From the NCBI RefSeq assembly GCF_003473485.1, contig NC_053045.1, forward strand, positions 57,764,494 through 57,828,493: 64,000 bases of DNA. Direction: 5' to 3'. Positions 1,696 through 49,270 of this stretch are shown piece after piece. Both the position numbers and the translations under genes were made by a program. Source of the DNA: Medicago truncatula. Taxonomy: Eukaryota > Streptophyta > Magnoliopsida > Fabales > Fabaceae. A model generated the notes under the pieces. It was not told the DNA's origin. It worked only from the letters and a program-made list of their open reading frames with translations, and searched no databases. The first letter of the stretch is position 1, and each line of letters opens with the position of its first letter.

Positions 1696-3740
1696 TAAAT
1701 AAATAATCAGGATATTCTAAGATAGATGTCTACTCGACACATGTAAGTCTACAATTAGATGTATATTTAATATAACATTTCTCTAATTTTAGACTTCATC
1801 CTTAAAAAAAAAAAAAATAGTATCTAGACTTCATATTAATAGATGAAAGCTGACATATCGTGAATCATCAAAAAATAATTAGGCAAACAAAATCTCTTTT
1901 CTCGAAGAATAAATAATGGAGAATTCTTATGTATTTTGATGTTCAGCTATGTATCGTACTTCAAAACAAACCTCATTCAAAATATAATTCTATTTTTAAA
2001 TAAAGTAATACGATAATATGACATGACTTTAAGAATTAAATGATAAATACATATTAAATCAAACTTTAGGATACCATTGTGTTCACTATAAATAATTTGC
2101 ATCGAAAGAGGGGCAAATAAAACAATAAATGCTTGGAATTAAAGCCTCCACCCATACTTACACTTGTACATATGTGTAATGCAAATCAACAATGTTATTT
2201 GCTCACCAACGGCCGAAATTAATTTAAAAGCATTATACCTTTCATATTTGGTCCCCACCCCCACTCTGCACTACATGCAATGCGAATTGATCCTCCTTTT
2301 CTACTTGTAATAAATAATTTATTGTACCAAAAGTAAATAGAAATTTATTCCATAACAACCATTCAAGTGCTAAGTTATATCCCTAAAAAAAAAAGTGCTA
2401 AGTTATATCTTCCTAAAAAAAATCCTAATTATATTTCTCCACTCCTCTACCATCTTCTCATATTTAATTCCCTAAAAAAAATCATCTCATATTTAATTTC
2501 CTCACTACTTTATGATTGAAGTTAAAATAAATTAATACTCCTTTCGTTTATGGCCAATTAAATCGTTTACGTGATACTGTTCGCAAGATGCTGTCATGCA
2601 GACATACTCTGCATACGTGGACAGACATCATATGTTTCGCGGTGTTTCTAGAAGAATATTTCTCCCCAGACCAAAAAAGTTACAATTTGGAGCACAAAGT
2701 ACAAATTTACACTATACTTTTTTTTAGGGGAAATTTACGCTATACTATTATTACTAGTATGCATGAACGAGTCAAATTGAAAAATGAATAAGGGTAGGAA
2801 TTAATTCATACTAGACTTTTTGCCCCGTGTGACGCACGGGTCTTGTCGACTATAATAGAGATCAATGAATAATATTTAACCCGTAAGATCATGGGTCGAT
2901 CAATAAACACAAATTAGATTATTAAAGATACAATATTACAATCAAATTTATTTTACTATGTCCTTCAATGACACTTGAATCTTATTAAATTTTACATTTT
3001 AGTTTTGAAAAATTAATCAATTAAAGATTGTTTATTTTATTTTATCACAATATATTATTGGGGCATTATCTTCTCATTTTTTTTTTAAAAAATTATAAAG
3101 AAAAAAGATAAAAAGAATACAATATTATATTGTTGTACGGGTCAATTTTATTTATTACTTTTATAGTTAAACATCAAAAATTGACTTGTAATAATTGTTT
3201 TAAAATTTTCACTTACATAAAAAACAAAGTCACTTCAATTAATAGAATTTTTAAATTACACGTACAACTCTAAAAAGAATAATTACACTTTGATATTTAT
3301 TAAAAGTAATAATATATTTTTTCAATTAAATACATATCATATCTGCATACTCCATCCGTCTTTAAATATAAGCAAAATTGACTTTTTAGGTTCATTCATT
3401 TAATGATGTATATGGTTCATAATATGGACCACATGCATATATCATAGAATTTAATAATATAAGAGATTTTATACAATGTATTAATTATTTTGAAGATGTG
3501 TGCTTGGTTGAAGAGTTGTGTATTTTTCAAGGGGTATAGCAATAGATGTAATTTAATGCAATTCATGGTTGCTAACAAAAAAAAAATTAATTTTAAATTG
3601 AAGAAGCGTTGGAAAGAAATATATAATTAGGGTTAGCACTTAGCAATTAATGCAAATCATTTGGAGGGAATTTTTTAGGTTTAGTTGTTGCAAACCTAAT
3701 AAGATTAAAGAGTAAGGGATGACCTAATGTGTAATTTCTT
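1696..3740. other. Intergenic DNA with small repeat relics
   Basis: No gene recognised. It holds two tiny A-tailed insertions with target duplications (2365-2408 and 2452-2498), a short hairpin CCCGTG/CACGGG at 2824-2840 of a kind common in plant dispersed repeats, and one isolated Stowaway-like end at about 3350. Open frames here are short and lack recognisable domains. Confidence 0.5.
3349..3440. repeat. Single Stowaway-like MITE end
   Basis: A TA followed by CTCCATCCGTCTTTAAATA resembles the conserved terminus of Stowaway (Tc1/mariner) MITEs. No matching opposite end was found nearby, so this is a truncated or decayed copy. Confidence 0.45.
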
Positions 3741-3749
3741 TTAGGGTTG

Positions 3750-3900
3750 TGTTAGCCGGTGCCCCGGTTAAGGTATCTAAAAAAAGGTAAGAATAAATTA
3801 AAAAAGACACTTTTTTACTTAGAAATTGATTACACAATTTTCGATGTAAAAGTTACTATATTTGCTTTCTTAACTAGTGCTCCGATGACACTGGTTAACA
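3750..3900. mobile_element. Small MITE, GTTAACCGGTGCC family, copy 1
   Basis: Inverted ends: the left reads TGTTAGCCGGTGCCC and the reversed right end reads TGTTAACCAGTGTC. The length is 151 bp with an AT-rich centre. A second copy of nearly the same length lies at 20909-21062. I could not define a clear target duplication, so the superfamily is left open. Confidence 0.55.
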
Positions 3901-3956
3901 TTTCCTTTATGTTAACACTATCAGTCAATTTTAACGTTTGATCATTATTTTTTTAA

Positions 3957-4256
3957 GGGTTAACAATGTTTTTCACCCTGTAATATATGTTATTTCTGGT
4001 TTTCGCCCCTATTAAATTTTCGGTTTGATTTGCTCCCTCGTAAAAAAATTATTTTCCGGAAAACACCCCTAATAGGCCATTTTCATAATTTTTTTCAAGA
4101 ATTTTTTTTTTCAAGAAATTTTGGTTTTTGAATGGCCTATTAAAGGTGTTTTCCAAAAAATAAAAATTTTACGAGGGTGCAAATCAAACCGAAAATTTTA
4201 TAAGGGCGAAAAATAGAAATGACATATATTACAGGGATGAAAAACACTATTAACCC
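3957..4256. mobile_element. Mutator-type MITE, 300 bp foldback
   Basis: An almost fully palindromic element. The left end starts GGGTTAACAATG and the reversed right end starts GGGTTAATAGTG. Both continue through a CCCTGTAATATATG-like motif and CGGTTTGATTTGC. A perfect nine-base duplication, TTTTTTTAA, flanks it at 3948-3956 and 4257-4265. The GGGTTAA ends and TSD length match the element at 670-1686, so the two are probably related. Confidence 0.85.
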
Positions 4257-4577
4257 TTTTTTTAATTTAAAAGTCATACAAACAATGACTTGTGATCAGT
4301 ATTAAGAACGTCCCCTTCCCCAAACACAGCCTTGTTGTCCCCAAAATGAATCTTAATTTATTTAGCCTAGAACTCTTCCTTGGTGGATCCCACATTAGCT
4401 GTATTCACATAAAAACATCACACTAGAGTATAATCTCCCATTCTTCCCCCATATATATATGTAACGATGATACGAGTATATAATGTAATAAAATAATTCC
4501 CGAATCGTTAAACAATATCTGATCCTTACTCCTCACACCTCCATCATTATATATATATATCACATTACACACCCTAT

Positions 4578-4586
4578 TATATATAT
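4578..4586 (+). promoter_or_regulatory. Possible TATA box of the FPF1-like gene
   Basis: A TATATATAT run about 120 bases before the start codon would give a leader of roughly 90 nt. Another TA run lies at 4548-4560, so the exact element is uncertain. This is a position-based inference only. Confidence 0.3.
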
Positions 4587-4702
4587 CCGAGCCATAGCTA
4601 GCTAGCTAGCAAGGTTACAAAAACACAAACACACGTACGTACACTTTTCTTCTTCATCATCATCTTAATAATAGTTTTGTGTAGAAATTGAAGAATAAAT
4701 AC

Positions 4703-5038
4703 ATGTCAGGGGTTTGGGTATTTAAGAACGGGGTGGTGAGGCTAGTAGAGAACCCTGGAGGTGAGGGAGGTGAGAGTAGTAGTGGAAGGAGTAGAAAGGT
4801 GCTTGTTTACACTCCAACAAATGAAGTTATCACTTCCTATTCTTTGCTAGAACGCAAGCTACAATCACTTGGTTGGGAACGTTATTACGATGACCCTGAT
4901 CATCTGCTTCAGTTCCATAAACGTTCCACCGTGTACCTCATTTCTCTTCCAAAGGACTTCAACAAGCTCAAGCCCATGCACATGTATGACATTGTCGTCA
5001 AGAACAAGAACTATTTCCATGTTAGGGACACGTCGTAG
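4703..5038 (+). CDS. FPF1: Flowering-promoting factor 1-like protein
   Basis: This intron-less gene encodes 111 residues, the size normal for the FPF1 family (about 110 aa). The start is the ATG of [14 protein letters not shown], the conserved family N-terminus; an in-frame TTG upstream was rejected. Conserved blocks follow in order: [45 protein letters not shown], and [17 protein letters not shown] at the C-terminus. There is no signal peptide or membrane segment. A low-complexity insert of Gly/Glu/Ser sits around residues 20-32. FPF1 proteins are small plant-specific proteins linked to flowering time, gibberellin response and root or stem growth; the biochemical activity is not settled. No gene neighbours it closely on either side. 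Family assignment is firm; the exact paralogue is not. Confidence 0.93.
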
Positions 5039-5327
5039 ATTTTGGTGTGATATATGTATAGGTAATAATAGTAATAATAAGATAGGGTTTGATTGGTGAG
5101 GATTTTGTGTCTTTAATCTGTGTGCTTTGCTGCTGTAATTTTTTTTAGTCACTCTAAGAAAAATTTGGTGTATATATTTGTGTGCAAATATTCATATCGT
5201 ACGTTTCTAATTTTAATCACTACCGTTTTTAAATGCAATATAGTTATTTCTTTATGTGAATAACTATAATTATTTTACATGATAAGAGCAATAATTAAAG
5301 TAAATGATAAACTTAAACAAATAATAT
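5039..5327. other. FPF1 3' region
   Basis: AT-rich downstream sequence likely to contain the FPF1 3' UTR. Nothing else is recognised before the SINE target duplication at 5316-5327. Confidence 0.4.
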
Positions 5328-5477
5328 TAGTTGTTTTTTTTGTCAAATAACTTAGTGGCTAGAGCTTACACAATTAATTGTGGAGAAGTGAAGTGTCCGG
5401 GGTTCGAACCCTGCTTGCTCCTGCATATAATATGCAATTTTAATCACACAATTATCAGTTTTTTTTTTTGTTGAAAG
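5328..5477 (-). mobile_element. tRNA-related SINE, reverse orientation
   Basis: The insert begins with a T-run (the reversed A-tail) followed by GTCAAATAACTTAGTGGCTA. It carries a B-box-like GGTTCGAACCCTG at about 5401-5413 and continues through GCATATAATATGC. A 12-bp direct repeat, AACAAATAATAT, lies at 5316-5327 and 5478-5489. The same family appears in the opposite direction at 6458-6588. A-tail, tRNA-type promoter box and TSD together indicate a SINE. The tRNA-like head with the A box is less clear in this copy. Confidence 0.7.
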
Positions 5478-5489
5478 AACAAATAATAT

Positions 5490-6443
5490 CAATCGTTCTT
5501 TAAAAAAAATGAATTTCAATTAGGATTTATTTTTAAAAGTAATTGTAATAATTTAGTTTGGCCTTAAAAAAGTAAAAAAAAATCTTGATTTTTGGTAATA
5601 AAAATATAGGTGAATGTGTTTTCTTGTTACTAATAAAGGTAGTTGTATGAATCATTATCATGTCACTTATCAATTAAATGAGTCAGTACACAAAATTAAA
5701 AATATGTCACACAATTCATGCTCAAACAATTTATTTTTTAATGTTTGCTCAAAATTAAAGAACGTTTCCGCATGTCGTACTCGTAGCACAGTAACATTAT
5801 TAGATTTAGAAGACCTTAGGGAGCATCCGTTTTTTTTTTAAAGACTTTGGGAGTATTAGTTGAAATGTATATTATTAGGAACTAAACACATATTATATAT
5901 ATATATATATTGAATCAACAAAAGCAAAACTACGACCTTTGGGAGATTTAGGGAGTATTAGTTGAAATAATTAAGTTTTGTTAAATCTACAAACACATAA
6001 TAATCATTCCATGCAGTTTTTTTGAACTTTGAAAGATTTCAGATTATATGATATGAAACAGACGGTTGTATTATATAATCTGAGAAAGAAAAAAAAAATA
6101 GAGCGTGTGAAAAGAACATATGATGAAAAAAGAAATAGTCCAAAATTAAATAAAAATTTTGTAGGGTGCAGCTTGGTAAAAGTACCATAAACCCGTTTCA
6201 TCTTAAATGTGCTATGAAACTCCTTCTCATGTGCTCACTCTTTTCACCTCTCACAAGTATTTGAAATTTGCTCTTAAGACATTTAACAAGCGTCGAACAA
6301 TAATTAACTACCGTTTAAAATATTTTTTACATCGGTTAAACTAACTTAACAATGAATTAATCCATTTAAAAAGTGTTGATAGTTAATTACCGTTTGGTTG
6401 ATGCTTTGTGAGTAATTACCCAATTATTTTCTAAACATGCATT
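5490..6443. other. AT-rich intergenic DNA
   Basis: No gene recognised. It contains a short (AT)n microsatellite near 5893-5910 and a repeated phrase, GGGAGTATTAGTTGAAAT, at about 5849 and 5952. Open frames are short and without domains. Confidence 0.5.
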
Positions 6444-6457
6444 AAAAAAAATCACAA

Positions 6458-6588
6458 CTGTCCCCATGAGTTTAGCTCATTTGGTAAGGGATAATGCACA
6501 ATATATGCAAGGACTGAGATTCAAACCCCATACATCTCACTTATTCATTTTTAAAGTGAATTTCTCTAATCACCAAGCTACTTGACTA
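6458..6588 (+). mobile_element. tRNA-related SINE, forward orientation
   Basis: The head reads TTTAGCTCATTTGGTAAGGG, resembling a tRNA A box. About 45 bases later a decayed B box GATTCAAACCCC follows. The tail ends CTACTTGACTAAAA and an A-run. The flanks share AAAAAAAATCACAA (6444-6457 and about 6589-6602), although the A-run makes the edge imprecise. It is the same family as the copy at 5328-5477. Confidence 0.65.
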
Positions 6589-6602
6589 AAAAAAAATCAC
6601 AA

Positions 6603-7318
6603 TTTTTTTCTTCGTGTAAATGTAAATTTTTGGATAAAACACACATTTTTTTCTTCCTATCCAAAATATATATCTAAAATCATTTACGGTATATTTCTAG
6701 CTTCAAATGTAACATGAAACTTAACATTGACATTTGAACCTCTACTTACGTGACATTTTCTTCTTTCTCAAACGGCGAAATCTATTCACATCTTTTTCTT
6801 TGAATAAGCTATCGAAATTATCATTTTTGTTTGAATTTGGTTCGTCAATCATACAAACATAATTACTATTCTCTAAATTTTGAATCCATTAAAATAGTCT
6901 ATCAGCCATCATTCTATTTCAATTTTTAAAGAAAATTGTTAGATTAACTATATATAGTTTAATACCACTTATTATTGTTGCAAAAAGGACCGATTGTGAT
7001 CGAAGCTCAAACTCTAGCTTCTCCATGTGAGTTTTGGGATGATTGTGATCGGGGGAGTGGGATATGTGAAGAAGGGGACGTGAGAGTCTTCATCTCTTAA
7101 TGGCATATGGTTTACACTACCTTTGATATCCTCGGTGCTTTGATTATGTGGAATATTTTGTGCACTTGTTAAGAAGTTCATTTTTGAATATGTTATCCCA
7201 AACTTACTTACATGTGGTAGTAGATCCCATTAACTTCATTGAGTACATGTGTAAAAGGAGTAAAAGATCTTGCTTCAACATATTCTTCTAGAAACAAATG
7301 CGTTTGGCGACATTCATG
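6603..7318. other. Intergenic DNA before the LTR element
   Basis: No gene recognised. Sequence is moderately AT-rich, with no convincing coding frame or repeat ends. Confidence 0.45.
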
Positions 7319-7323
7319 TTAGG

Positions 7324-8532
7324 TGATAGATAATTGGCAAGTGTATCAATAACTATCGAAGTAGTAATAAATATCGTTCCACAAGGACTGTATTAATTTC
7401 AATTATAGCAGGTACGTTATTAATTTAGGATATGTAAAAGTCATATTGATTGCCCTAGGCAGATGATTTTTCGTATACAAAAAGCAAATAAAGATTGTTT
7501 GCAAAGATGATTGAGAAGAATGATTAAGCCGATGAATCCCCTACTGTTCTATATGAGTAATTACCTCCCTTATTTACTTATTACTATTCATTCTTTACGA
7601 CGAATTAACAAATTGGTTTTGATCAATCTCTTGAATCAAAACCCTTTCCTAAGTTATAACCTTTTAATCTCTTAAACCGATTGAATAACTGCGGAAGCGA
7701 TAAATAACGTTAATTCATATGTCATGATTCTCAATTTCCTATCTCTAGGTTCCTATGTTGAATCAAACAGAATTACTAATTCAGGATTAAAAGCTAGGGT
7801 TAAGAGTCATTCAATTCCTAATATCAATTCATATAATTCAAGAAGCTAGGGTTAATAGTTATACGAGCAATTATATGAAAAGCAATGAACACAAATAATT
7901 CTGAATAAAGACTGAATAATATTATTAAATAAGAGAGTATCAACTACTAATTCATATATTACAACGGTTCATCATGGCTCAATCATACTGAGAGTTTAGC
8001 TACTCATGGTTTTACGATTAATAACATAATTGACAGTGAACATACATAATCAGGACCAACTATGAGTTGGTATGAGATTCAGGGCTTGTCCTTCGGTCTT
8101 CTGATGTCCTCTATGCTCAAAATCGTACTTCCCAAGCGAACCCTAATCCGTGGCCGCATCTAGCCTTATATAGAAAGATTTTACGAGTTCCAGAAAGCCC
8201 ATCATCGTGCCACGATACGATCCAATCGTGGCACGATAGCATCATTAATCCTACGTGGCAGCAGACAAAACCTAGCATCGTGGCACGTTGCGATTTGCTT
8301 CGTGCCACGAAATATCCAGTGCTGAACCTTTGTCCCACGTTCACTTATCGTGCCACGAACCAGCTTCATCGTGGCACGATTCTATATTCTTAGGAATTTT
8401 CCATCTTTTTCTCAGTTTCGTCTTTTGAGCTCCTGTTCCTGTTTTGATCTGATTTCACCATGATTTACAAATAGTTGACTCTCTTAATGTCCTAAAAATA
8501 TCATAAAAATAACGTAATGACGACTGTCATCA
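7324..8532 (-). repeat. Left LTR (3' LTR of the minus-strand element)
   Basis: It is 1209 bp and nearly identical to 10617-11825. A stretch near 8204-8380 contains repeated palindromic ATCGTGSCACGAT motifs. Short open frames inside it are LTR sequence, not genes. Confidence 0.9.
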
Positions 8533-9839
8533 CAACCCCAAACTTGAACTATTCCTTGTCCTCAAGGAATTTACTTGCATCATTGAATATCGACAGTAAA
8601 ATAACAATTACCTGATTCAAGCGATAGTACCCAAAAGTTCAACTCCCTACTAACTAAAGATGAGCTAGTTTGACTTATTCGCAACCACCAATTCACAACT
8701 CCACGCAACAATATGAAAGGGTTCACACACAGTCGACATACAATCTACATATTACCATACGCTTGAAGAGTTTCTATACGTCAATCAAAATCAATGTCAA
8801 TGCACACTTTGAGGTCTTTAAGGGTAACAACGGGGCTTAGGTGAAGGTGGATAATATTTGGATAAGTAGGCTACACAAAATTTGAGTTAGGCACTCCTAC
8901 ATAAGTTAAAACACAAATTGAACCAATTATTCATTCACCTTTTGGAACACAATTCTTGCAAAGGTACTAGAGATCATTCTTAACAATTTGGGACAATCGA
9001 GTTTTAGATACTCGGATTTTCAATGTTATGTCCCTTTTTCATTCAATTTTTTTTTTTTGTTTAATACACCATTTTTGTGTATTGTTTATGATAATGCTCT
9101 TTCTTTATCTCTAGTACCCCACCCCAAACTTAATTGGTTGCAAATTCCAATAGCAACCCCAAACTTATTATTTAGCAACATTCTATAATGCCTAACTCAG
9201 AAAAACAATTTGGGATAAATCCTAAAAAGTCTCTAAGCTTGTAATGTAGTTTGTCACCGAACAAAAAGATCTAGACCTACCGGCTCAATTTGGCTAAAAA
9301 GAAGATAAAATTTCAATTAAAATCAGGGTAGGCTTCAAAAGGCTCACAGGACCAAGCACTTTTGCCTCAGTGTGTATATAACAAAGATCAATCGACAGTA
9401 AAGAAACAATGCAAGTTTTAGAAATGTAAATGCATGGAACACTCTTTATAAGTAAAATTGGAAAAATAAAGTTTGGCTATGAACCTGACAGTTATGATAT
9501 CTGGGAGTTGTGACTACCTATCTTTCATTGCCGTGCACTTCGCCTTTGAATCACAAGTCACTCCTCCTTTTGAACTTTTGGAATACCACTTGAACACATA
9601 TTTGTTACTAAACTGGAAAAAGTCAATAACACAAGAAAATTCATCGATAATAAACAAGTGCAAGTTCAATTACATCACAGAGGGATACAACTGAGTTAAA
9701 CCAAAATGAAAATGAAAGACAAATTGTTTGACTCAACAATAGAAATAAAATACTAAAAATAACGACATAATAAAAAGGATGGGTTGCCTCCCACCAAGCG
9801 CTTTCTTTTACGTCATTGAGCTTGACGCTTCAACCACTG

Positions 9840-10430
9840 TTAAGGTGGCAAAAATGATAGAAGGAATATATCACCCTTCTTCTTCCTCCTGTTTGGTAGG
9901 AATTCCATGAACTTGTAACAAAGAAGTAGATGCTCCCATGCTCCCATTGTTAAACTTTTGGAATTGGAGCTCTCCCACAATATAGAAGAATATGTATCCA
10001 TTTGCACACGAGTGATTTTCTTAACCCCATTTGATTCAGACTTCGGGAAAATATCCACACTCCTCACTTTGGGATTTTCTTCCACAACAACCTCGTGACA
10101 CTCAGTCTCCATCTGAACCAACTTCATCTGAGACTCATGTGCTTTCTCAACAAGATTACCACATTGAACATCAAACTTCTCAAATAAAACTTGATTTGAC
10201 ACCAAGAAATCATCTAAAATATTTTGAAGTTGAGTATTGTAATCGATGTTGATCACCTCTTTCTTCTCTTCACAATTACTACCTGGTTCATCCCCCTCAT
10301 AACGACCACATCCCTCATTTAATCTTGAGATTTTATTGTCCAAATATCCTATCTTCAAAGATAGCATATATTTTTCATACTTCATCATACCAATCTCTTT
10401 TGTGTCATGGAGGTATAACCTGTCTATCAT
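9840..10430 (-). other. Uncharacterised open frame inside the LTR element
   Basis: A 196-codon minus-strand frame, sense with respect to the element and lying just after its primer-binding site. The protein is acidic and helical in character with no recognised gag, zinc knuckle or pol motif. Downstream, at about 9780-9840, is a phrase (GGGTTGCCTCCCACCAAGCG on the plus strand) that I recall as recurrent near the 3' end of plant Ty3-type elements. Treated as part of a fossil element, not a host gene. Confidence 0.4.
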
Positions 10431-10592
10431 AGCTGCAACACTTGAATAAACTTTTTAGTAGCACAGTACAATGATGAGAAGAAAAAGAAGAGCATAAATC
10501 ATTTTTTTAATTTTTTTTTATATATAAACAAAAATATAAATGACAGAAATCCTAAACAAAAACAAAATTGCCAAATTGAAATAAATCAACAG

Positions 10593-10610
10593 TCCCCGGC
10601 AGCGGCGCCA
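10593..10610 (-). other. Primer-binding site, tRNA-Asp type
   Basis: The plus strand reads TCCCCGGCAGCGGCGCCA, the CCA-ending 3' end of plant tRNA-Asp except for one base. It lies six bases from the right LTR. Confidence 0.8.
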
Positions 10611-10616
10611 AAAACT

Positions 10617-11825: not shown

Positions 11826-11830
11826 TTAGG

Positions 11831-13490: not shown

Positions 13491-13609
13491 TTGTTAGTTA
13501 GATTAATTTTACACATTCACCTTAATTCAGTTTCAGAACAAGAAATAAAAAAAGAAACAAAGCTTGAAACACCATTTTCTTATGCTATCATTCATCACAT
13601 CCTATTCCG

Positions 13610-16800: not shown

Positions 16801-16819
16801 ATATAAGTGGGTGAGGCTT

Positions 16820-17062: not shown

Positions 17063-19951
17063 GTTTGGTAACACGAATAAGTTAGCTTATAGCCTGTTGG
17101 ATTAGCTTATAAGCTTGTTTTGATATAATAATGTGTTTGGTAAAAAGCTTTTTTCACTAGCTTATAGCGTTTTTTGAGAAGCTATTTCAAGTAGCTTTTG
17201 AACTTATAGCTGGTATTTTTTTTATATTTTCTTCGAATTTAAACCTTATTAATTTAATTTAATTTTTTTTTTTAATAAAACAACATGTTCATGGCTTAAA
17301 AAATAACGGCCAAGTTCATAGCTTATTTTTTAATAAAACAACTGCCACGTTTTCTCCTTTGAAAAAAAAAAACTGTCATGCTTTGTTTTATTTTTTAATG
17401 AACGCTTTATATATATTTCTTAAAAGAAATGCTTTATATTTAACTATAACTAGCCTACGGTACGTTGTAAAATTTTATATATTCTTGCTTGCATTTTTTT
17501 CCACCTTCCTCTTATTTTTGGAATTCATAAAAGTGGAGATTTTTTGGGATTCATAAAAGTTGAGATCAATGAGCTTTTTCCCTCTTTTGTACAAAAAAAA
17601 TCAGAGATCAAAATTGTCACTAAAATTTTATTGGAGACTAAGATCAAAAGTTTGTATATTTATCGGGATCCAAAACATAGTTAACCATAAATTAAAATAT
17701 TAAAAAATAAATACATTAGAAAAAATGTCTATATATATATATATAAACATATCCTCTTATGTCGTTTTATACTTATCAGCCACTTCAACCGCTAATTTTA
17801 CCAAATACTTCATTTTTAATAAATCATCTTTTCAGTTATAAGCTATCGGTTATAAGACATCATCAGCTATAAGCTTGTTTTTTCAGATTTCAGCTAGTTT
17901 ATAGCTTATTTTTACCAAACACACCCCACATACAGTCATAAATTTTGTTCAATTCCAAAACCTAGAACACACATAACGTGCAATTTCTTCTTCATTATTC
18001 TTCCCATCTTGGTTGTTCAATTCTCCTGTTCAAGAATTGTTGTCGTTTCTAATTATCGTGAAAATCGTTGTCGTCCTTTTGATTCCAGACATTGTGAGAA
18101 TTGGTGTTGTTTCCATAATCACATCAGGTATCGTGACTTGATTTTTCTTCTTGATTTGATTTTTCATTTTCCTTTCTTTCTCACTACTATCGTGACTTGA
18201 TTGCAATCGTTTCACACTTATAATGCGACATTGGTAACTTTCAACTTTGGCATGAATTCCAATGATGCTTCAATTTTTATTTGGGTTTTAAGTTTGATTG
18301 AGTTGTTTGAGATTATATAAAATTATATTTTATCACACATATTTTGCGTTTGATTAAGATAAATGGATCTTTAATGCGTTGATTATTAATTTTATTTTTG
18401 GTACAATATTGATTATTAAATTTACTTTTGGAATTTGTTTTATTCAAATCATTATATTGTGTTGTTATGTTGTTTTTGTTCCCGATGTATTTTGTGTTGC
18501 CGAAATGAACATCTGTTGAGATTGTAAATACGGTGTGAGGTCGGTTAAAGCTATGGAAGAGAAAACAAAGTGAAATAAATAAATAATGCTAATACAAACA
18601 TGAATTTCATAAGGTGAGCGTTAATTCGTGGATATAGCTTTTGGAAACAATGCCGATCTCACGATGTCTGAAATCAAACGGATGACAACGATTTTCACGA
18701 TAATTGGAAACGGCGACAATTCTGGAACGAGAGAATTGAACAATCAAGATGGGAAGAAGAATGAAGAAGAAATTGCACGTTATGCGTGTTCTAGGTTTTG
18801 GAATTGAACAAAATTTATGAACATATGTGGGGTGTGTTTGGTAAAAATAAGTTATAAGCTAGCTGAAAACTGAAAATCTAGCTTATAGCTGATATCTTAT
18901 AACTGATAGCTTATAGATGAAAAGATGGTTTATTAAAATTGAAGTGTTTGGTAAAATTAGCTGTTGAAATGGCTGATAAGTATAAAATGACATAAAAGAC
19001 ATGTTTATGGAAGGTTGCACTAGTAGTAGAGTTTGCAACCCACTTATGATGGAGAAAACAACAAATTTGAGAACCTATTACGGCGGCGACGGTGATGGCC
19101 TCGGATCTCTCCTTTCTTTGTTCTTTCTATAAAATTTGTGGCATGAGGTTATCGGTGAGAGAGAACGACAAAACAGAGAAGAGGAAAGGAAAAGGGAAGG
19201 TTGAAGTACATGACCCTTTTTAAAGTGCAATTAAATCTGAAGCGTTGATTTAGATTAAATGGTCCAAATTAATTCCTCTCACCCTCTCATTATAACTACT
19301 CCTCTCACTTGATATGCCTTATATATATAGACATTTTTTCTAATGTATTTATTTTATAATATTTTAATTTATGGATAACTAGGTTTTGGATCCCTATAAA
19401 TATTCAAACTTTTGGTTTTAGTCTCCAATAAAATTTCACAGACAATTATGATCTCTGCTTTTATTTTTTGTACGAAAGAGGGCAAAAGCTCATTGATCTC
19501 TACTTTTATGAATTCCAAAAATAAGAGGAAGATGGAAAAAAATAGAAGCAAGAATATATAAAGTTTTACAATGTATCATAGGCTAGTTATAGTTAAATAT
19601 AAAACATTTCTTTTAAGTAATATATATGAAGCGTTCATTAAAAAATAAAATAAAGGATGACATTTTTGTTTTTCAAAGGAGAAAACGTGACAGTTGTTTT
19701 ATTAAAAAATAAGCTATGAACTTGACCGTTATTTTTTAAGCCATGAACATGTTGTTTTATTAAAAAATAATTAAATTAAATTAATAGAGTTAAAATTGGA
19801 AGAAAATAAATAAAACTGCTGGCTATAAGCTCAAAAGCTACTTGAAATAGCTTCTCAAAAAACGCTATAAGCAAGTGAAAAAAGCATTTTACGAAACAAG
19901 CTTATAAGCTAGTCCAACAAGCTATAAGCTAGCTTATTCGTGTTACCAAAC
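17063..19951. mobile_element. Large foldback element, about 2.9 kb
   Basis: The two halves are long inverted copies. Left 17063 onward begins GTTTGGTAACACGAATAAG and the reversed right end begins identically. The pairing runs inward past GGGGTGTGTTTGGTAAAAAT (reversed at about 17905-17926; direct at 18829-18848) to about 18110 and 18648, leaving a loop of about 530 bp. Each arm is itself bounded by GTTTGGTAA-type ends, suggesting two MITE-like units joined head to head. The right arm carries an extra block at about 19013-19325 absent from the left. No transposase frame is present and I could not find a convincing target duplication. Confidence 0.75.
19013..19325. repeat. Extra block inside right foldback arm
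   Basis: Alignment of the two arms is interrupted here: the sequence between ACATGTTTATG and ATATATAGACATTTTTTC has no counterpart in the left arm except a short TA run. It is somewhat richer in G+C (CGGCGGCGACGG near 19082). Its origin is not recognised. Confidence 0.55.
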
Positions 19952-21062: not shown

Positions 21063-21880
21063 CAATATAATAATTCATTGTCATGTAAATATAGTCATTT
21101 CCAATGCCACTTCTCATATTTATTTTGACAATCCAATATGTATTGATACTTGTTTTTTTTAATGAAATGATGAATTATTTTATTACCGTAAAAAAACTAA
21201 ATATTTTAAATGTTACCCTAAATATAAAACAGGAAATATAAAAAGGTTTGTCTAACCTGTGCAATATTGCACATATTAAGGTAACTAAAAGAAGTAACTT
21301 TTCATTAAAAACAAACAATTATTGAATAAATGTTACATGTTTAATATAAAAAACTTGTGCAAATTTGCACATGATAGAAAATCCATATAAAAATATATAT
21401 ATGAGAAGTTAGACATTTAATTTGGAATTAATGTTGATGACTGATTGCTTGTGAGTGACGTCTAGGTCGGGGTAGTTCTTGAGGTCATTAATAACCCATT
21501 AAGATACTGCTAATTCATTAACAAGTCGCTCAAGTGAGTCATAACTCATGACCTAAGTTCTTTCACCATTTAATGAATATTGTTCATGATCAAGTTTGCC
21601 TTGTCAGTAGGTTGAGCAAGCTTCATTTTACAATAACTGTTTTATGGCTTTGCTTTGTCACATTTCCGGTCGTACGTTAGCCTTTGCTCTGGAATTTTTT
21701 GATGGTTAGTTAATTTTTGTTAGGGGAAATGCCTAGTTTATTTTGTTGACCAGAACAACTACCATCGTATGATTTGTCAAAAAAAAAAAAACTACCATCG
21801 TATGATCTTTATGATGATACACATCGAAAAGGTCCAATTCTTGTCGAGGCATTATATAAAAGTAGAGCTCTCCATCATCA
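21063..21880. other. Intergenic DNA
   Basis: No gene recognised. It includes a possible diverged MITE at about 21246-21375 and one tiny A-tailed insertion with duplicated target at 21757-21806. Confidence 0.45.
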
Positions 21881-22165: not shown

Positions 22166-23940
22166 TTAATTTAAGAACAAATCCTCCCTTAAATTGTATA
22201 CACCAGAAACCTTGAAAGAATAGATTATATGATAAATTATATGAAATCTTTTGTTTCACCATTAGTTGCGTGTTTAGGGTTTTCTTGTCCACGTCTCGTT
22301 GTAGAGGCTGTCCACCATGGACCACTACAATTAGTCATGGCCACAACTTTTCTTACGGTTACAAGTGAAACTGCATCACATTGTAAATTTTCACGAATCT
22401 TTGTGATGTAAAGCACTGTTCTAATAATTAAGAATATAATAGAATAAAATTTCTAAAACAATATTTCGTCTTAAAAGAAATTGTAAAACAATATTTAAAT
22501 TTGAATAATTTTTTTTAGTAAAATAGAAATGTAAATTATCACATGACAATGGCAACGTGGAAATTTTTTGTATAGCATACTTTAAACAACGTTCAAGGGG
22601 CTATGTTGATCTTAGTCATCTTCTAGTATAGCTGAAACAATTTTCGGTTGGATAAGATTTTTTACACCCTAGATTTTATTGCAGTCACTCCCTTTCATAA
22701 ATAAATCAATATACCTAAGTAGATTAGTCTTTTTATTTACTGGACAGTAAATAATCCGAAGTGGGTAAAATGATGTGATTTTTATTCAAAATTGGAAATA
22801 TTTAAGACACTCTTTTTGTTCTGCTGAACGGCGATGTGGCTTAGGCATATGTTTTTTCCCTCAGCTTTGGCGCTTTTACTTTGTCTTATGCTATTTTTTG
22901 GTTCGATTTTGAGCTCCTCCTAGAGAAAAGGATAAAAGGGTGTGTTCATAATTTCTTATCAAATTAAAGCATGGCTAGCTAGTACTAATTTGAAATGTTA
23001 TGCTCAAAATAAACCAGCAACAACCGTCCAATCCTCCATCACCACAAAGAGTCGTCACATTTCCATAAAAAATTACATTACTATATGAATAACATTTTTT
23101 TAGTAGATAGACGAAATGACAAAACTATTATAAACTCACACATATAATAAGAGACGAAATGACATCCGGCCTAACAATTTCGACATTTTACCAGTGAATT
23201 AAGACTTATGGATAAATAACATTTTATTTATTCGCAAACTATATGAAACTTAATCACTCACAATTAAAATTTAACATATTAAAAACAAAAATGTTAACAA
23301 ATGTCATTATGACACTTTAAGAAGCTCAAACTAAATTTTATATCTTAGAGTTTGTCTATTAAACATATTGAAATATTAAAAAATAATTTTTTTACATAAA
23401 ATTTAGCATTTTTTTTTTTTAATTCTTAACAAGTGATTTTAGCGCAGTTGTTAGCATAAACTTTAACTTATTAAATAATAAATAAGAAATGTAGCCAAGA
23501 AAAGGAGGAACTCGGGTGGAAATTCAGGAGGATAAGTGAACAAATACAATATTCCCTTAAAAAAAAATACAATATGTCAAAGCCCATAAAATTTGGTTAC
23601 ATTTGTTTGTTCAAGCAAAGTACTTTTTGCGTGCTTTCTCAAGGTCAAGTGGGAAAACACAACTAGTAATAGTATCCCCGTGTAACATGCATAAAGCCCA
23701 TAATAATAATGAAATTTTGAAATGAAGAACCAAAAAGTTACTGTTACCAATGTGTCTCAGTTAATTTAATAATTACATTGATGCAGTAAATAATGTTTCC
23801 AAGAAGTGTAATGCTAGTACTTAATTTGCTTCTAACACAGAAACAAAAGCTTAGAACATCAACAAAGGACAAAAAAAAAAAAAAAAAGAAGCTGGGAGAT
23901 ATATATAAAGAAATGCATGTTATCATAGTATCACATAATA
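22166..23940. other. Intergenic DNA
   Basis: AT-rich sequence with no supported gene. One tiny A-tailed insertion with duplicated target lies at 23542-23575. Confidence 0.45.
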
Positions 23941-30899: not shown

Positions 30900-32836
30900 A
30901 GGAAGAGTGGGAGTGTGACTTGGCAAATCACAAAGGTGCATAGAGGAAAAATGTTTTGGTCGCGTTATGTGAACCAACAAGTGGAGAATCTGTGTCAACA
31001 TCGAACATACAAGAGGGGTTAGAGACTTGAAATTAGATCATGTAATTATGGTAAGATGGTTCTTTCTTTTGTCCTTTTCGTTATTGACCCAAAAAAATCT
31101 AATAGTTTTCTTTGAGTTCTATTTCTACACGTTAGTTACCCTCTTTTTTAACAATCAACATCCACAAAATCTTTTCCTCTTTTCTTCCTTTGTGTTGTAT
31201 GCATGTATGTTCTCTCTTGTTATCTATCCTTTTCTATTTTCCATTTTTTGCTAACCATATGTCAAATTGTCACCTAATGTTTATTCTCTTTTTTCTTTTT
31301 CATTTCTTATATTGAAAACACAAAATTATAACTTCCTAATTGGAAATAAGTTTTATTATTTATTTGAACATCAAAATACAAAAACACTACCCTATGTGCT
31401 ATGGTATGTATTTATCATTAGATCAATGTCATTTGGATACACATACTTTGAATGTGCATGTGTTTGATCCAAAATCATGATCAAATATATCTATTTTTTA
31501 TTTAGATTAAAAATAATCAACTTTTGTGTCAAAAATCCCTAAAAAAAGTGTCAAAAAATCATTTATCTTATTTGTCTCTTATTTTTTATTTTTTTTTACA
31601 ACTTACACGTTTCAACAAATACACATAAAAATTAAATATCAAATCATATTTGACCTCAAATTTTCTTATGTCAACCTATCTTTTGTCTTAGAAATTGCTT
31701 GATGTCACCAATTCCAAAAGGTTCCATGGCAAAGCGTCACGAAATAACATAATGCATTGACCCGTGATTTTGTAATATATATGGGCAACTCTTTTTGTGA
31801 CACAACGTTGTTTTTCTTAACTTTGTAAACTTTTTTTACACATAATTTTACAATTAAAAAATCAGATTTGTCTTTTCCACTTTCTAGTCTAGTGTCTTAA
31901 GTTCTTGTTCTTAATGATGAAAATAACATGAAATTGGGTGAAAAATTATGTTACTTTTGTTATGGAATAGGATAGGATGCCCATTATGTTGAATTATTGC
32001 CTAACATATGTTATGTATAGATGCTGCCCGTAAATTGAATGGTTCAACTTTAGGTTCCCCTAGTTTATTGAGTTACTTTTGTACCCTATTTGTCTAGTTA
32101 AGAGTTTTTAACTCAAAAATAATATAAACAACACCAACCAAATACGAATATGTAGATTTATATGAACCATTTTGTTGCCTAAGTTTCGCCTCATTTTTTG
32201 TTAAACACCAAAGCAAAAAAGGTTTAGAGGACAAGGTTCCAAACTCATCACTACCATCCATTCAATATGAAGACAAAGAGTTCAAAACATTCTGAGGAGG
32301 GGTACACAAATATCAAAATCATTGTGATGATGACGTGTGTGAAGTCTTGAGGGGAGAGAACAAAGGCAATTATATGCTGAATTTGAAATGCTTTTTAGAC
32401 GCAGTAGGTTATAAACAAAGTCAATATGCGTGAGTTTGAAGCAAAAGGAAAGGGTGGTTATTGAGTTTGATTCCAAATCCAAAGTAGAAAGCATGATTTG
32501 GAATGAGTATTATAATATTATGTGACGGCAAGAGAAGAGAGTAGCATGTAAAGAATATCTCTATATATGCTGTATATGTGTGTGTCACTCTTATCACACA
32601 CAAACTATCATATAATTGTTCTCAAATTCATCATCCATACAAACCTTACAAAGTTTGGCTATGAAAAAGATATAACATCCACTGTTTTGTGGTGGTATGA
32701 AAACCATAAATTGATATAAAAAGCTAGTTGTTCTTAAGTGACTACTGATACTATTCAAATTTAGCTTGTTATCCAAGAGCAGACATCGCCATGGATCTGA
32801 AACAACAGTTCCTTGACAGCAGACTCGTCCATTTAA
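30900..32836. other. Intergenic DNA between PP2C promoter and AlaX 3' end
   Basis: AT-rich with pyrimidine runs. Frames at 31027-31467 are low-complexity Phe/Leu translations and not credible genes. Nothing else recognised. Confidence 0.45.
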
Positions 32837-38090: not shown

Positions 38091-38099
38091 AAGTGTTCC

Positions 38100-39347: not shown

Positions 39348-39350
39348 TTA

Positions 39351-41990: not shown

Positions 41991-41997
41991 CACAAAC

Positions 41998-42378
41998 ATG
42001 AGAACGAGAAACAACCTCTGTGTTTTCTTTCTTCTCTTTTCAATCTTAGCCCTCCACGTGGCACTTTCATCATCCTCCACCCTTGATTTCACCGACAACC
42101 AGCTCAGCTCCTTCTTCCTCCCGTCGGATTCCGGCTGCCGTGGATCCATCGCAGAGTGTAGTCTTCTCGCCGGAGATGAAGATGATAGTGAGTTTATGAT
42201 GGATTCTGAGAGCAACAGGCGCATTTTAGCAGCAAGAAGGTATATTAGCTATGGTGCGCTGAGGAGGAACACTGTCCCTTGCTCAAGACGTGGTGCTTCT
42301 TATTATAATTGTCGGCCTGGTGCTCAGGCTAATCCTTACCGCCGTGGATGCAGTGCCATCACTCGATGCAGGCGTTGA
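41998..42378 (+). CDS. RALF: RALF prepropeptide (RALF1/RALF33 type)
   Basis: The intron-less gene encodes 126 residues. A hydrophobic signal peptide covers about residues 7-24. The propeptide has two cysteines (Cys47, Cys54) and an acidic segment. The subtilase S1P site RRIL lies at 74-77, giving a mature peptide beginning near ARRYISYGAL. The mature part has the receptor-binding YISY motif (82-85), the RRNTVPCSRRGASYYNC block and four cysteines (95, 105, 118, 124) for two disulfides, ending in RCRR. Such peptides are secreted, bind FERONIA-type CrRLK1L receptors and LLG co-receptors, and cause apoplastic alkalinisation and growth arrest. Length and every hallmark are normal. An AATAAAATG-type polyadenylation context lies near 42550. 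The closest Arabidopsis relatives I recall are RALF1, 22, 23 and 33. Confidence 0.95.
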   Translation: MRTRNNLCVFFLLFSILALHVALSSSSTLDFTDNQLSSFFLPSDSGCRGSIAECSLLAGDEDDSEFMMDSESNRRILAARRYISYGALRRNTVPCSRRGASYYNCRPGAQANPYRRGCSAITRCRR

Positions 42379-45300
42379 AATTCTTGTTATTCTCATTTTC
42401 TCTAATTTATTTTTTTATTTGTATTTTTTTATATATATATTTTTGTAATTGATGATCTTGATGATGATTATAGATCTTGTTATTATGTACTACGAGTAAT
42501 GGTATGCTACTACATATACAAGTAGAGAGAATTTGAAGTAGTAGAGTTCAATAAAATGAAATGAAATCTGATTGCGGTTTGTATTTGCAATTTAATTTTA
42601 GGTACACGTTATTATTTGGTTGAGAATTGAGATTTGAGAAGATTATTACTATATATGTCATCAATATTTTGTGTTATTCTTGTTTGTTTGATTTAAGTAG
42701 TTTCTGTTTGTATGAAGTTGTAGCCTTGTATGGGGGGAGTGTTTGGTGGTTTGGAAAGGCAATGTGAGATGAAATTATGGATGCTTTTTGGGATGATAAT
42801 GGGAATGGACAATGAGACCTAAAATTCGGCCACTTTTTGGGTTTTGGCTTTTTGAACATGTGGCTTGAGAGAGAAGGAGAGTGGCATCTCTTTGGGTTGG
42901 TGCCTTGCCTTGTGTATCTCCTTGCTCCCTTTTCTCTTTTCCATTGTTGAAATTGAGGTAAATCGTCCTACTTTCCTAAGTCCCACACCGCATTAACTTC
43001 CTAAGTACCAAAAAAAATTTAAACATTTTGTAAAATTGATTATAGTTAAAGGGTTACCCTCATAAGTGCTTTTAGAGTATTTGTTAAAGAAACGATGTTT
43101 AAATTTTATGTTGAAAAAATTATTTTTTATTATTTTAAAAGGTTGAATATACAATTTCTAGGATAAAGTTTCTACTTTAAAATTTTTAACGAGTGTCTTA
43201 GGACATCTGTTAACATTTCTCATAGCTAAAAATAAATTAAGTTTAAGGAAATGCTTACTCCTTTGAACCAAATAAATTTATCCTTCACTTCTATTTGTTG
43301 CTCTTTATCTCGTGTTCTACCTTTTGCACAAGTTAGCATACCCTAAATTTAAAATAATTTTGCATGTTTATTATCCGGTGCACCAATGATTCTAATGTCC
43401 TTAGGCACGTCAGTGTGATTTTTGCAAACATTAGTTTAAAATCAAAATCAACTCAAATATTTAATAGTATCAATCAGCAACTTGAACTCAGAATAATTTT
43501 TTATGAAATAGAACTAAAAATCGAAGAGAGTAATTTCTTTAAAGGGAAGAACAATCGGAGAGAGTAATAACAATAACAATTTGCTTATATGTTTCAGGAA
43601 GAAAAAGAAAACATTTGCTTATGAAAAACACTCAACTTAATTTTAAGAATAGATTCATACAATTTTAAGACGGCAAAGGTCTTGTTTTTCTCCCGGCCGC
43701 CATGCCGCTAATAGCGTACCTATCTATTTTCAATGGCTTCTCTTTTTTTTTTGGTCTAGTAATTTTCAATGGCTTCTCTAATCTCTAGTTCTCTACTACT
43801 ACTTTGACTTGCCACATATAAAGTATTAGTATTATTTCTTTTGGAATACAATATTAGTATTACTGTAGTATATGTAACAATTTATGTTTTAAAAGGATGT
43901 TATAAAAAGTTCATTTTTCTATCTATTTAGCAATCATTTACGGTATATATTATACTACTTGATGTTTATTTATATCATTAAAGGATTTAATTTGTATGCA
44001 TAGATGATGTACATTTTTCTACACATATAAACAATCAAACTATACCATACCACTTAAATGTTTGTGAAAATATTTATAAACTAGATAAAAGTGTGATTTA
44101 ATTGAATGCATGTATAAAAATTAATCTTATGATTAAAACTGTTACTACATTTGTTCCTAAATCATGGGCTCTGCTTTTCCTTTCCGAAGAGGAATGGTAT
44201 TCTAATTATAATGGATTGAAGACACAGGCTCACATGCATTATTATTATTATGGTCCGCGTGAATTGAAATCAGTGAACGCGCTCGTATGATTATACTAGG
44301 CATCTTACCTTTGTCTGTGACAACTAAAATACACCTCACAAATCTTTGTCTCATTATCTTCTGTCCAAATCTGAACCAACCAACTTCAAAATAAATCCCT
44401 AACCCGAACGGCAATGACACTTCTATATCTACATTTCTTTTGACCGGTTCTATAAATATAGTTACATATCACACACACGCAGTTTAGTTTTATTATTACA
44501 TTTAAGGGCCAGCATATCATATCTGAACGTGATTTTGTACCATATTTCTCAAGGAACTCTTTGCTACGCTGTCGGATATCATCACACAATTGATGCCATG
44601 TTTCGAACCCGTATTGAGTAGATAAAAATCTTCAATTACGATACATATTTAAGTCATAAAAATCTCATACCTAATAAAACATGTCATTCTTAAGCAGTTT
44701 AGTAGACACATAAAGTACAAACTTGGAACAAAAAATAAATAACAAATGACAAGCAGAGAAGCACAACCATATAATCACCAACAAAGACAATAAATCTAAA
44801 AAAAAATTGAGACCGGGTAATGATGTAGTCAAAATACAATGTTGCCATAGTAGCAAGATATAGATGCGGTGGTTGAGGTGGAGCCGTGGAGGGCGATCCA
44901 TTGGAGAATGACTTGTAATGATCATGCTTCGTAGGAAAAAAAAAACTATAGGCCAGCGGTGCACAAGGAGAACTTGTCAGGCGTTTCGCACCACCGGATA
45001 ATCGCAAGGGAATCAATTGCATTGGGCACCAAGTGAGATAGGCAGAATTAGCGCTGATGCAGGGGAAAGCCATAACAACATATCGAAGCTGGACGACTTA
45101 GGTTGAAGAAAAGAGACACACAACACAAATTAGGACAAACTTGAAAAAGGATGTTACAAGGAGAGGTATGCACAGAGCGGAACTCGTAGTTAGAAAAAAA
45201 TAGAGGTAAAACGTGAAAACGAGACAAAAGAGAGATTGTACATCGTACTAATTCTAGCATGGAACCTTAAAACAATGCAAGGAGAAGCATAACAAAATAG

Positions 45301-45550
45301 TACAATATTTGATAATCGTTTAAGCCTTGCATTTTTTAATATATTTTCCTTGTGACTAAAGTTTTTCACCTGCATCAACAAAGATTTGTTCAATTGTTAG
45401 GGATATGATCATTGCCATAATTACGTGGATTTAAATTTTGATGTCGGGGTAAGAACTTCGCTAGTGGGATAATAAGTAGGGCGACTACTAGCTGCAAAAA
45501 CATCCACAATAGATCCATTATTTTTTAGAGTATCTTGTTCTTTGATTGTG
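42379..45550. other. Intergenic DNA after RALF
   Basis: The first 200 bases are RALF 3' UTR. No gene is supported farther on. A tiny A-tailed insertion with an 18-bp target duplication lies at 43726-43779. Minus-strand frames around 44200-45390 overlap each other, lack domains and are not credible. Confidence 0.4.
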
Positions 45551-45640
45551 TATCACCATCAAAGACAACAACTTTGACATTCTCATTCTCAAAATTCTAC
45601 GTTCTTCGTTTTTTTTTTTGAGAGAAACGTTCTTCGTTTT

Positions 45641-48600
45641 ATACCATAGACAAATTCAACCATTTAATTTCTTAGCTTGAATCTCGTTCAATCCACAAAC
45701 ACGGGCAATTTCATCTACAATTGAGATCGCTTGACAGATCTCATCCCCTTGAGAGTTTGTGTAAAAGCTGATAATTCAACTAAATATAGTTTTTTTTTTT
45801 TTTTTTTTAGGAAAACTTAATAGAGTTGTTACTTGTTAGTTTATGATTTCGTTTCAAATCAATTAGCAATAGCATATTTCTCTCCACGAAGAAGACAAAT
45901 GGACTAAAGGTTGGATGGTAAATAAAATTGACATGGATATGAAATGCTTGTATAAGAAATTTTTGAGACAATATCAATCTTGATATCAGGTGCCTATCAA
46001 ACTATGTTAATTAGTATCATCAAGCCCTACAACTCAATTGTTCTGCAATGAAGTAGATTTGGAATAATTTTCCCCAAACAGTGTGAGGCAATTTGATATC
46101 ATTTCCTCAAATCTATTTGTTTCATGAATAGAAAGGTTTTTCCATTGAATTGACTTGTATAATGGAGCAGAATCTATGGTCCCCTATCCAACTATCAACT
46201 GGGACCGAAACATTATCACTTGACATTTGCAGATGCTATTAACTTCTTTTTGGAAGCTTCTACCGATCAAAGTGAGACTATTACACCTCTGAAATCAATT
46301 TGAGGCTATAGTACTATTTTGGATTTTTTTTTCCACCAACTTTGGATCTAAAAGTGAGCCAAGATAATAATCTGGTTTTATTTTCTCCAACTTAACGGTG
46401 GCTTCAAAAGCACAAATGACTCAGGAATATTTGGTTGCTTTTCATCCTCCATAAGATAATGGATTAACTAATCCTATAGTTTCATTTTGGATAAGGAAAA
46501 TCATATGCTGAGAAACTAGAATGCTCATAATTCCTTGACGACAGATCATGAACACAAATCAGATTTGTGCTAGGTCCAAAAAAATTAAATATTTGTGATT
46601 ACCTTGACAGAAATGTATAAATTTCTCACAAGGGTTCATGAACAATGTAAGAAGGTGCACCTGATTGCAAACCCAAACATTGGGGTGTGATGGGACTTTT
46701 GGTCCCTTACAACTATAAAAACACTCAGAATGGTCAGTTTTGGTCCTTTACAACTATAAAAACACTAATACTGGTCAACACAAAAAATGACTGGTCCCTT
46801 TACAACTATAAAAACACTCAGGCTGGTCATCACAAAAAATGCAAGTGCAAGAGCTATTTTAGTTTGATCAATGTCACTTATAATGGGTCATCAACAATAT
46901 GCAAAAACATATTGTTTTTGCCGAATTTGAAAGTTAGTTGAGGTATTTGTGAATAGTTCTGAACTATAATTTTCTTTTTTTCAAACGATTGTGGAGAGTA
47001 ACGAACTTTGTTCCTCAATTATGAGTTCATTGACTACTTCAAAGAGTCTAAAGTACAATATTTAAGTGTTTTTTTAACTATTGGGCTAAGAAAGACATAA
47101 AAATCAAGGTAGAGCAAAACTTTTAAGGAATAAGTTGCTTAAAAGGCTTGTTTGATTGATTGTGTATGTGGAAAAAAAATTGTACAAGTACAATATTTAT
47201 AGGAAAACGCTAATCATACTAGTCAAAACAATGCGGTCTACAAAATTCAGTTTTACTCAATTAATTAGGTGGATAACGCATGAATTACCTCGTTGTTAGG
47301 GGTATGTGGCGCCTCACGTTTGACTTGACCTTCTCTCTTTCGTGTTGTTTCTTGTTTCCTTTATCCACATGTGCACTGACTCCTTAGAAGGTGTTTATGT
47401 GCCCACAATTATTTTGTTTAATTGTGGTACAAACATCAAACACAGGTAAACTGACAAATTGTCAAGTTCCACTAAGATTTGAATGATTCTAATATCCTCA
47501 CGACCTTTGAGGTCTTCGATAGAGTTGAGAAAGATTTGATTAACTCGTATTCAATTGAATCTACATTCTCCTAACTTTCAATCGATTGAGTGGAACTCGT
47601 TTGTTTCTAAATTTGTTTGTCTGTCGATCTCGGCTAACAAGTTATTTATTTTTCGGCGTGTTCTGCTGTGTTGCATTACCACTTAACTTTGAGTTGTGAG
47701 GTGAAGTGACATTAACAATAATTATTGCGCGTGGACAATAGCATCATTGCATCGTAAAAGAAAAGAAATAGTAGTTGAAAACCTTGTCTCGACTTGCAAA
47801 TACGAAAAACTCATTAACTTATGTCCATTTGATTACTTCAATGATAATCTTGACCCTTTTAATTATATTGATTAAGAGCCTAATCATTAAGTGGTCTCTT
47901 TCTATAAATCAACTCAAACAAATGTTGCATTTGGACTTGCTATATATCTTATTCCTTTGAATTGTCTGTCCTTTTTGCTAAGAACTCACTTCTTGATCTT
48001 CTTTGACCTTTTTTTAGTACTTTCTTGAGCACTTCTTTCATAACCTGACTTTTGAGAATGACTTCTTTGAAATCCATAACCAAGATGAAGTGAATTGTCT
48101 TTAGAACCCTTTACCATATCCAAGAGACCAAGACCATGTTACTCTTCACCCTTGCATTGTGAATGTTGAGTAATACATAAGTGAGAAGATGCATAAATCT
48201 AATGTCTAAAAGTGCTGATTAAATATGTTGTTGCTCTTGATTCAATGTGAAGATCTTGAGGCCTCCTCTCATGACCCAACAATGACATGAAAGTTGAAGG
48301 TTACTAAAGGGACCAACTCCTTGTGTGTAAACACATATTTCTAATGTGCTACTCTTTTTTAACTTATTCTAATGTGAAGATCTTGATTCAATGTGCTTAA
48401 AATGATACATAACAAAAATAAGATATTTTGACATTTTAAACTCTAATAAATATTTCATTCGATATAGAATATTTTAATTTAGATGTAATTTTTACTATTT
48501 TACCATTTTAAATGTCTTTTTTTTTATAAGGAACGACATGTTATCAGATAATTTGTTGATGCGGTTTTATAAAATAAAAATAATATACCATTCATTTTAA

Positions 48601-49270
48601 AATGAGGAAAGCTTAAGAATTTTACGCACAAACTAAGAAATATAGTGAATCATTCTTATTTTTGTTTGATCCTTCTTATTTTAACTTTTTTTTAAGGACT
48701 TATTTTAACTTATTCTACTCTTTTTAACATACTTTCTAATTATTTAAATACTAATAAGGATTTTTTTTTTGAATAAATAAATACTAATAAGGATGATTAG
48801 CTCTACTAATTAATAAGGATGATTAGCTTTACCAATTTAAGTTAATGATTTAAGAGTTGACAGTCCAAGTATCAAGTAATATAAAAATTAACATCCTAAC
48901 ATTTGTTATTTAAAGAAAAACTTCCTTAAAATTTTTTAAAAGAAGTTTATTATTTTTATTTTATTTCAATGAAACTACTCGAAGACGATTTTTCTTTTTG
49001 TGTTAATCTTTGATTTAAAAAAAAAAAAAAAAATAGTTTTGTTGAAATCAAAAGATAAATAAAATTTGGTCCCTAACTGTTCCAACAATAGTGGAAATCA
49101 AACAGTTTTTTTTTTTTTTAAGGAAGAAATCAAACAGTGTTGTAAGTTGTAACCAGTATTTAACTTGTTTTTCTCCAATTTAATCACCTACATACACGTA
49201 AAACGTGAAAATAATAAAACAAAATAAAATAAAAAAACGCGTAGGAAAGAAATTTAGACAGAGAGAAAAG
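45641..49270. other. Intergenic DNA, decayed sequence of unknown origin
   Basis: Parts of 45900-46600 and 47300-48300 are less AT-biased and look like old decayed coding or transposon DNA, but I could not assign a family on either strand. Two tiny A-tailed insertions lie at 48746-48794 and 49094-49138. No intact gene. Confidence 0.35.
46691..46842. repeat. Three-unit tandem repeat
   Basis: GGTCCYTTACAACTATAAAA, followed by ACACTMA and a TGGTCA block, occurs three times, starting near 46702, 46744 and 46794. Unit length is about 42-50 bp. Units two and three also share CACAAAAAATG. A short open frame crosses it without a recognised product. Confidence 0.75.

Follow-up and report, generated by a model that had tools for sequence, protein, structure and literature searches.

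A-tailed micro-inserts in the 64-kb window

We investigated a 64,000-nt stretch of the Medicago truncatula genome (the window; C4:57764494-57828493 of a 429.9 Mb genome in 42 contigs), which has a G+C content of 25-36% and contains a set of very short insertions that we call micro-inserts. Each consists of a head of a few nucleotides followed by an A-run (written head-An) and lies between two copies of a duplicated target. Several of the heads match the 3' ends of three element families, namely a transfer RNA (tRNA)-type short interspersed element (SINE) and two long interspersed elements (LINE A and LINE B). The original prediction for this sequence had listed nine direct-repeat/A-run structures and treated them as one class of insert. 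All nine are present where it had placed them and seven stand as members of the class, while one (17523) is a tandem duplication and another (2365) is ambiguous.

On the plus strand, direct-repeat inspection gave CCCT-A8 between imperfect target copies at 2452-2498. TTGTC-An, whose head is the LINE B 3' end, lies in a 17-bp target duplication at 21757-21806 and was recovered by both of the scans described below; TCCCTT-An, with a head similar to the LINE A 3' end, lies in an 11-bp duplication at 23542-23575 and was found by the direct-repeat scan. The second scan, which was stricter, missed the sites at 2452 and 23542. On the minus strand, both scans recovered TACTAGACC-An at 43726-43779 (18-bp duplication), whose head is identical to the terminal 9 nt of the tRNA-type SINE; TTCTCTC-An at 45599-45640 (14 bp); TCCTT-An at 48675-48711 (13 bp), with a head as in LINE A; TTTATTC-An at 48745-48794 (17 bp); and TTCCTT-An at 49094-49138 (13 bp), whose head is the LINE A 3' end. 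The site at 48675 was absent from the earlier list. The micro-insert at 48745-48794 has a right target copy that overlaps a 26-bp tandem duplication (48785-48837).

Rather than an insert, the structure at 17523-17566 forms one half of a tandem duplication of 26 bp (17515-17566), because the supposed insert TTTTTGGG duplicates the upstream flank TTTTTGGA with a period of 26 and because an inverted paralogue at 19320-19762 (87% identity) lacks exactly 26 bp at this site. The inverted pair (17273-17811 and 19320-19762) matches over about 470 bp, with an extra matching stretch at 18942-19008. At 2365-2408 on the plus strand, (C)CCT-An lies between 17-bp copies; this could equally be a tandem duplication of 28 bp, the second copy being followed by CTTCCT-A8 (read as CTTCCTAAAAAAAA). 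Elsewhere in the window, a 41-bp and a 52-bp tandem repeat overlap at 46697-46841 and both contain TTACAACTATAAAAACACT, and a 24-bp unit is perfectly duplicated in tandem at 62496-62543.

We scanned the window for exact direct repeats of at least 11 bp with spacers of 4-30 nt, dropping low-complexity copies and using 20 dinucleotide shuffles as the control. Spacers with an A-run at the right end or a T-run at the left end were scored as expected side, and the mirror design served as a second control. The window held 39 direct repeats, or 23 without low-complexity copies, against 0-3 per shuffle under the same filter (n = 20). The shuffle comparison proposed along with the nine structures favored them: eight spacers with a run of at least 5, including that at 48675, were on the expected side in the window, compared to one in all 20 shuffles combined and one mirror-design spacer in the window (at 1128).

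The same polarity was found in an unselected, though not random, sample of 264 kb, which comprised the window and a further 200 kb of this genome (164 kb from one C4 region and 100 kb in ten C1 stretches). Here, the direct-repeat scan gave 15 expected-side and 4 mirror spacers among 121 repeats (10 vs 0 for runs of at least 7). A second scan, started from A-runs of at least 7 with an exact target core and controlled by mirrored sequence, gave 15 vs 1 for inserts of up to 40 nt, 8 vs 2 for 41-500 nt and 1 vs 1 for longer ones. The A-run therefore lay at the 3' end only and abutted one target copy, as in L1-type insertion (15 vs 1; 15 vs 4). This polarity is not due to AT-richness, because the mirror control preserves composition. 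Heads were 3-9 nt in 14 of the 15 short inserts and 30 nt in the other; of those 14, 3 lie in the C1 part. One of the 15, at 31541 (TCCCT-A7, repeat GTGTCAAAAA), looked weak on inspection. The 5-mer TCCTT directly preceded 10 of 353 A-runs of at least 8, compared to 1 in the mirror. The longest A-run listed by the second scan belongs to L004, on the minus strand with its A-run at 8233 (reverse-complement coordinate), where CCCCT-A37 lies between copies of AACTCCTAAACTA.

Parent families, target duplications and insert lengths

Three heads were searched genome-wide with an A10 run attached, and each greatly exceeded its reversed pattern: CTAGACC-A10 (86 vs 2), TTCCTT-A10 (1491 vs 76) and TTGTC-A10 (2886 vs 263). 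For all three, the head is the 3' end of a SINE or LINE family. Full tRNA-type SINE copies end in CTAGACC-An, and the places carrying this sequence are of two main kinds, SINEs ending in ...TAGCCACTAGGCTACTAGACC-An and CTAGACC-An on its own, flanked by target copies. The window has such a tRNA-type SINE on the minus strand at 5328-5477; read from the sequence, it ends in ...TAGCCACTAAGTTATTTGAC-A8 close to copies of AACAAATAATAT, and by sequence comparison it resembles SINE copies at other loci of the genome.

The TTCCTT places (39 of 40; L068 was left out) share no common body except in two pairs of repeat copies, L055/L089 and L061/L088. At L080, a 104-nt body lies between perfect 19-bp copies, and this body led to the family that we named LINE A (248 first-look candidates; at least 41 matches). 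Its 3' ends read TTCCTT-An in 5 of 12 copies and close variants such as TTCTTT in 7 of 12, and in one copy (L126) an RVT_3 domain lies just upstream of the 3' end. An Rfam search of L080, L035 and L042 gave no match up to E 1. The SINE was also considered as the parent of TTCCTT heads and rejected, as the pattern TAGCCACT-N{2,25}-CCTTA7 gave just 3 places.

LINE B was defined from the 5'-truncated LINE tail on the plus strand at 51469-51888, which was read from the sequence to end in TTTTTGTC-A6 and to be flanked by copies of AATAGCTGAACGTTGCTCC. This family (1806 first-look candidates; at least 41 matches) ends in TTTTTGTC-An in 8 of 12 copies, TTTTTGTCG in 1 and TTTTTGT-An in 3. One of the 20 TTGTC places, L130, is a longer LINE B copy.

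By one rule applied to all three pattern samples, micro-inserts with a target duplication were found at 17/40 CTAGACC, 17/39 TTCCTT and 10/20 TTGTC places. When right flanks were exchanged among loci, the corresponding counts were 2/778, 2/765 and 2/385, so that target duplication is above chance (44/99 places vs 6/1928 swapped flanks). We profiled 57 micro-inserts, a set that omits two of the 15 short inserts of the second scan (the weak site at 31541 and L006, with its 30-nt head). Target duplications averaged 15.6 bp and heads were 3-10 nt, with none of 0-2 nt; in the 13 that stem from the unselected scan, heads were 3-9 nt.

SINE-derived insert lengths are bimodal. In 82 of the 86 CTAGACC places (80 genome loci, the window site and L011), we found 35 long copies of about 89-131 nt, 3 inserts of 14-33 nt, 33 micro-inserts and 11 unresolved places. 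Heads of the CTAGACC micro-inserts were 4-10 nt, in a pattern search to which heads below 7 nt are mostly invisible. Automatic classes (39 SINE body, 32 micro, 10 unresolved, 1 other) were followed by reading 18 rows by eye, which moved L105, L152 and L094 to unresolved, L161 to micro, and L182, L100 and L162 to the short bodies of 14-33 nt; L119 was omitted from one sequence alignment.

Origin of the micro-inserts

Our favored reading, to which we give a probability of roughly 0.65, is that the micro-inserts arose when L1-type target-primed reverse transcription of LINE and SINE RNAs stopped about 5-9 nt past the poly(A). A target nick would prime synthesis on the poly(A) of a polyadenylated LINE or SINE RNA; the enzyme would cross the poly(A), copy only about 5-9 nt of the element and halt. 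The short complementary DNA would still become attached to the upstream end of the target, and fill-in would leave an ordinary target duplication of 11-21 bp. Such a process would explain why the A-run abuts one copy, why the target is duplicated, why heads are family-specific and why one polarity prevails. The original prediction had likewise proposed target-primed reverse transcription halted after a few bases. Polarity, genome-wide pattern excess, target duplications and family heads all speak for this explanation, which does not hold for 17523 and is in doubt for 2365; the family-specific 3' ends and the bimodal lengths are additions to it.

The reverse transcriptase was probably a plant L1-clade enzyme; the single link to a host LINE enzyme that we saw is the RVT_3 domain beside one LINE A copy. 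The template was presumably a longer RNA, although a short 3' RNA fragment from decay or processing, comprising a few nucleotides and the poly(A) and copied to its end, is a less likely but serious alternative. It would explain the fixed head lengths and the gap between micro-inserts and full copies without a roadblock, but such fragments would be required in three families. Narrow head lengths combined with widely varying A-runs suggest that the stop position was set by the template; A-run lengths may have shifted since insertion, and this is no proof. As a hypothesis only, and weakly backed, the enzyme may be blocked by a stem-loop of 5 bp that lies 7-11 nt from the poly(A). The distance between the poly(A) and a perfect 5-bp stem is 7 nt in the SINE, 8 nt in LINE A and 11 nt in LINE B, and 95% of the cells of the LINE A stem are paired.

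Several observations weigh against early-stopped reverse transcription or against parts of it. Stems of equal length arose in 220, 282 and 383 of 2000 shuffles of the three families, and the LINE A stem showed no covariation above shuffles. Minimum-energy folds contained the stem in only 2 of 6 single 3' ends (L116 and L042), and LINE B heads are 5-9 nt, short of the stem at 11 nt. Some TTGTC micro-inserts read CTTGTC or CCTTGTC, unlike LINE B, and no parent element was found for the heads TTCTCTC and TTTATTC (45599 and 48745 in the window), CTAGT, TATTTCCC and CCCT. For the CCCT-An heads, a telomere-like origin was also weighed, on the appearance of the sequence only. Heads shorter than the search pattern are invisible in the pattern samples. 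In the 57 micro-inserts, the start of the duplication was A-rich (at least 2 A among the first bases in 82% vs a null of 28%) and T stood at -1 in 61% (null 47%), but at -2 A (60%) and not T (28%) prevailed (null 32% and 37%), so that the nick profile departs from the plain TT/AAAA of L1; the way in which the copies were delimited may account for some of the A excess.

In searches within this one genome, which did not include 45599, we also found no empty site for any A-tailed micro-insert. Flank matches of 48675-49138, 43726 and 23542 in the genome search never spanned the sites, those to the surroundings of 21757 covered its right side only, and 2365-2498 matched only itself. The sole empty paralogue belongs to 17523, which lies outside the class. 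When empty forms of 39 places were queried against the sequence gathered, spanning matches were found for L088 and L093 only, and we trust neither: that of L088 concerns a locus without a real target duplication, and that of L093 covers 52 bases at 75% identity (E 0.001). The flanks of L055 led to a repeat family (59 matches listed; best 40 of 66 candidates scored), and among the matches listed, sequence similarity suggests that many copies of this L055/L089 family carry an old TTCCTT-An insert. This insert therefore seems to have spread along with its host repeat.

Three further explanations do not invoke an early stop of this kind. An improbable one is that micro-inserts are simply the shortest products of random 5' truncation, a usual event in LINEs; intermediate LINE tails do occur (51469-51888 and L080). 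The SINE lengths are bimodal, however, with 33 micro-inserts, 3 inserts of 14-33 nt and 35 long copies in 82 places, and the unselected scan gave 14 of 15 heads of 3-9 nt and one of 30. Patch-mediated repair of staggered breaks with filler is known from the rice literature and leaves partly tandem duplications. It suits 17523, with its 26-bp tandem duplication and empty paralogue, and perhaps 2365, and further tandem duplications are present in the window. Break repair predicts neither A-run polarity nor family-specific heads, however, and is very improbable for the class, for which the mirror controls and the pattern excess led us to reject it; 17523 alone fits this kind of repair, and there we retain it. 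Chance or homopolymer slippage, for which the AT-rich composition of the window and its many direct repeats without an A-run might speak, has a negligible probability and is rejected at the stated thresholds by the shuffles (1 qualifying site in 20 shuffled windows vs 8 real) and the mirror controls.

More tentatively, and at somewhat less than even odds, an early stop could be a main outcome of LINE and SINE mobilization here rather than a rarity, with the 3' end of the template halting the enzyme at a fixed position and insertions of 15-40 bp numbering on the order of ten thousand, a figure that is a rough extrapolation. These near-invisible inserts would then record nicking and priming events that annotation of long copies misses. 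Were this general, counts of long copies would greatly understate nicking and priming by the plant LINE machinery, and short structural variants and homopolymers would commonly arise from such scars. Each scar could be traced to its parent through the head (CTAGACC, TTCCTT or TTGTC), and a set stop position would make the early end of LINE reverse transcription, a long-standing question, testable on natural sequence.

Comparison with known systems

Break repair in plants leaves short tandem duplications with or without filler. Site 17523 resembles these, whereas the micro-insert class differs in its A-run polarity and element-specific heads.

The literature searched, which includes the available parts of PMC3747384, PMC5135761, PMC3219598 and PMC2912911 and had subscription journals mostly outside its reach, gave no account of an abundant insert class with less than 10 nt of element. 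Calling the class overlooked reflects that search alone and does not demonstrate novelty.

Plant L1/SINE pairs have been described, with a 3' stem-loop in one monocot L1 lineage and the Medicago families MT_SINE-1 to -3 (PMC3747384, in the portion available). The elements here are similar in being tRNA-type SINEs and L1-clade LINEs with (A)n tails, the likeness to MT_SINE being by description only. As far as that portion goes, it concerns RNA recognition, whereas early stops are the topic here. In the human NF1 gene, an inserted poly(T) of about 120 bp was considered a possibly severely truncated Alu, L1 or processed pseudogene (PMC3219598, in the text available). That case is single and pathogenic, and the available text reports no element letters; the inserts here are numerous, carry 3-10 element letters and have short A-runs.

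The micro-inserts also resemble 5'-truncated L1 and Alu insertions formed by target-primed reverse transcription, described in a study that, in its accessible part, was limited to 50 bp-10 kb (PMC2912911). They share with these an A-tail on one target copy, duplications of around 15 bp and 5' truncation, and they differ from what is reported there in having an element part that is shorter than 10 nt and of fixed length, without a wide spread.

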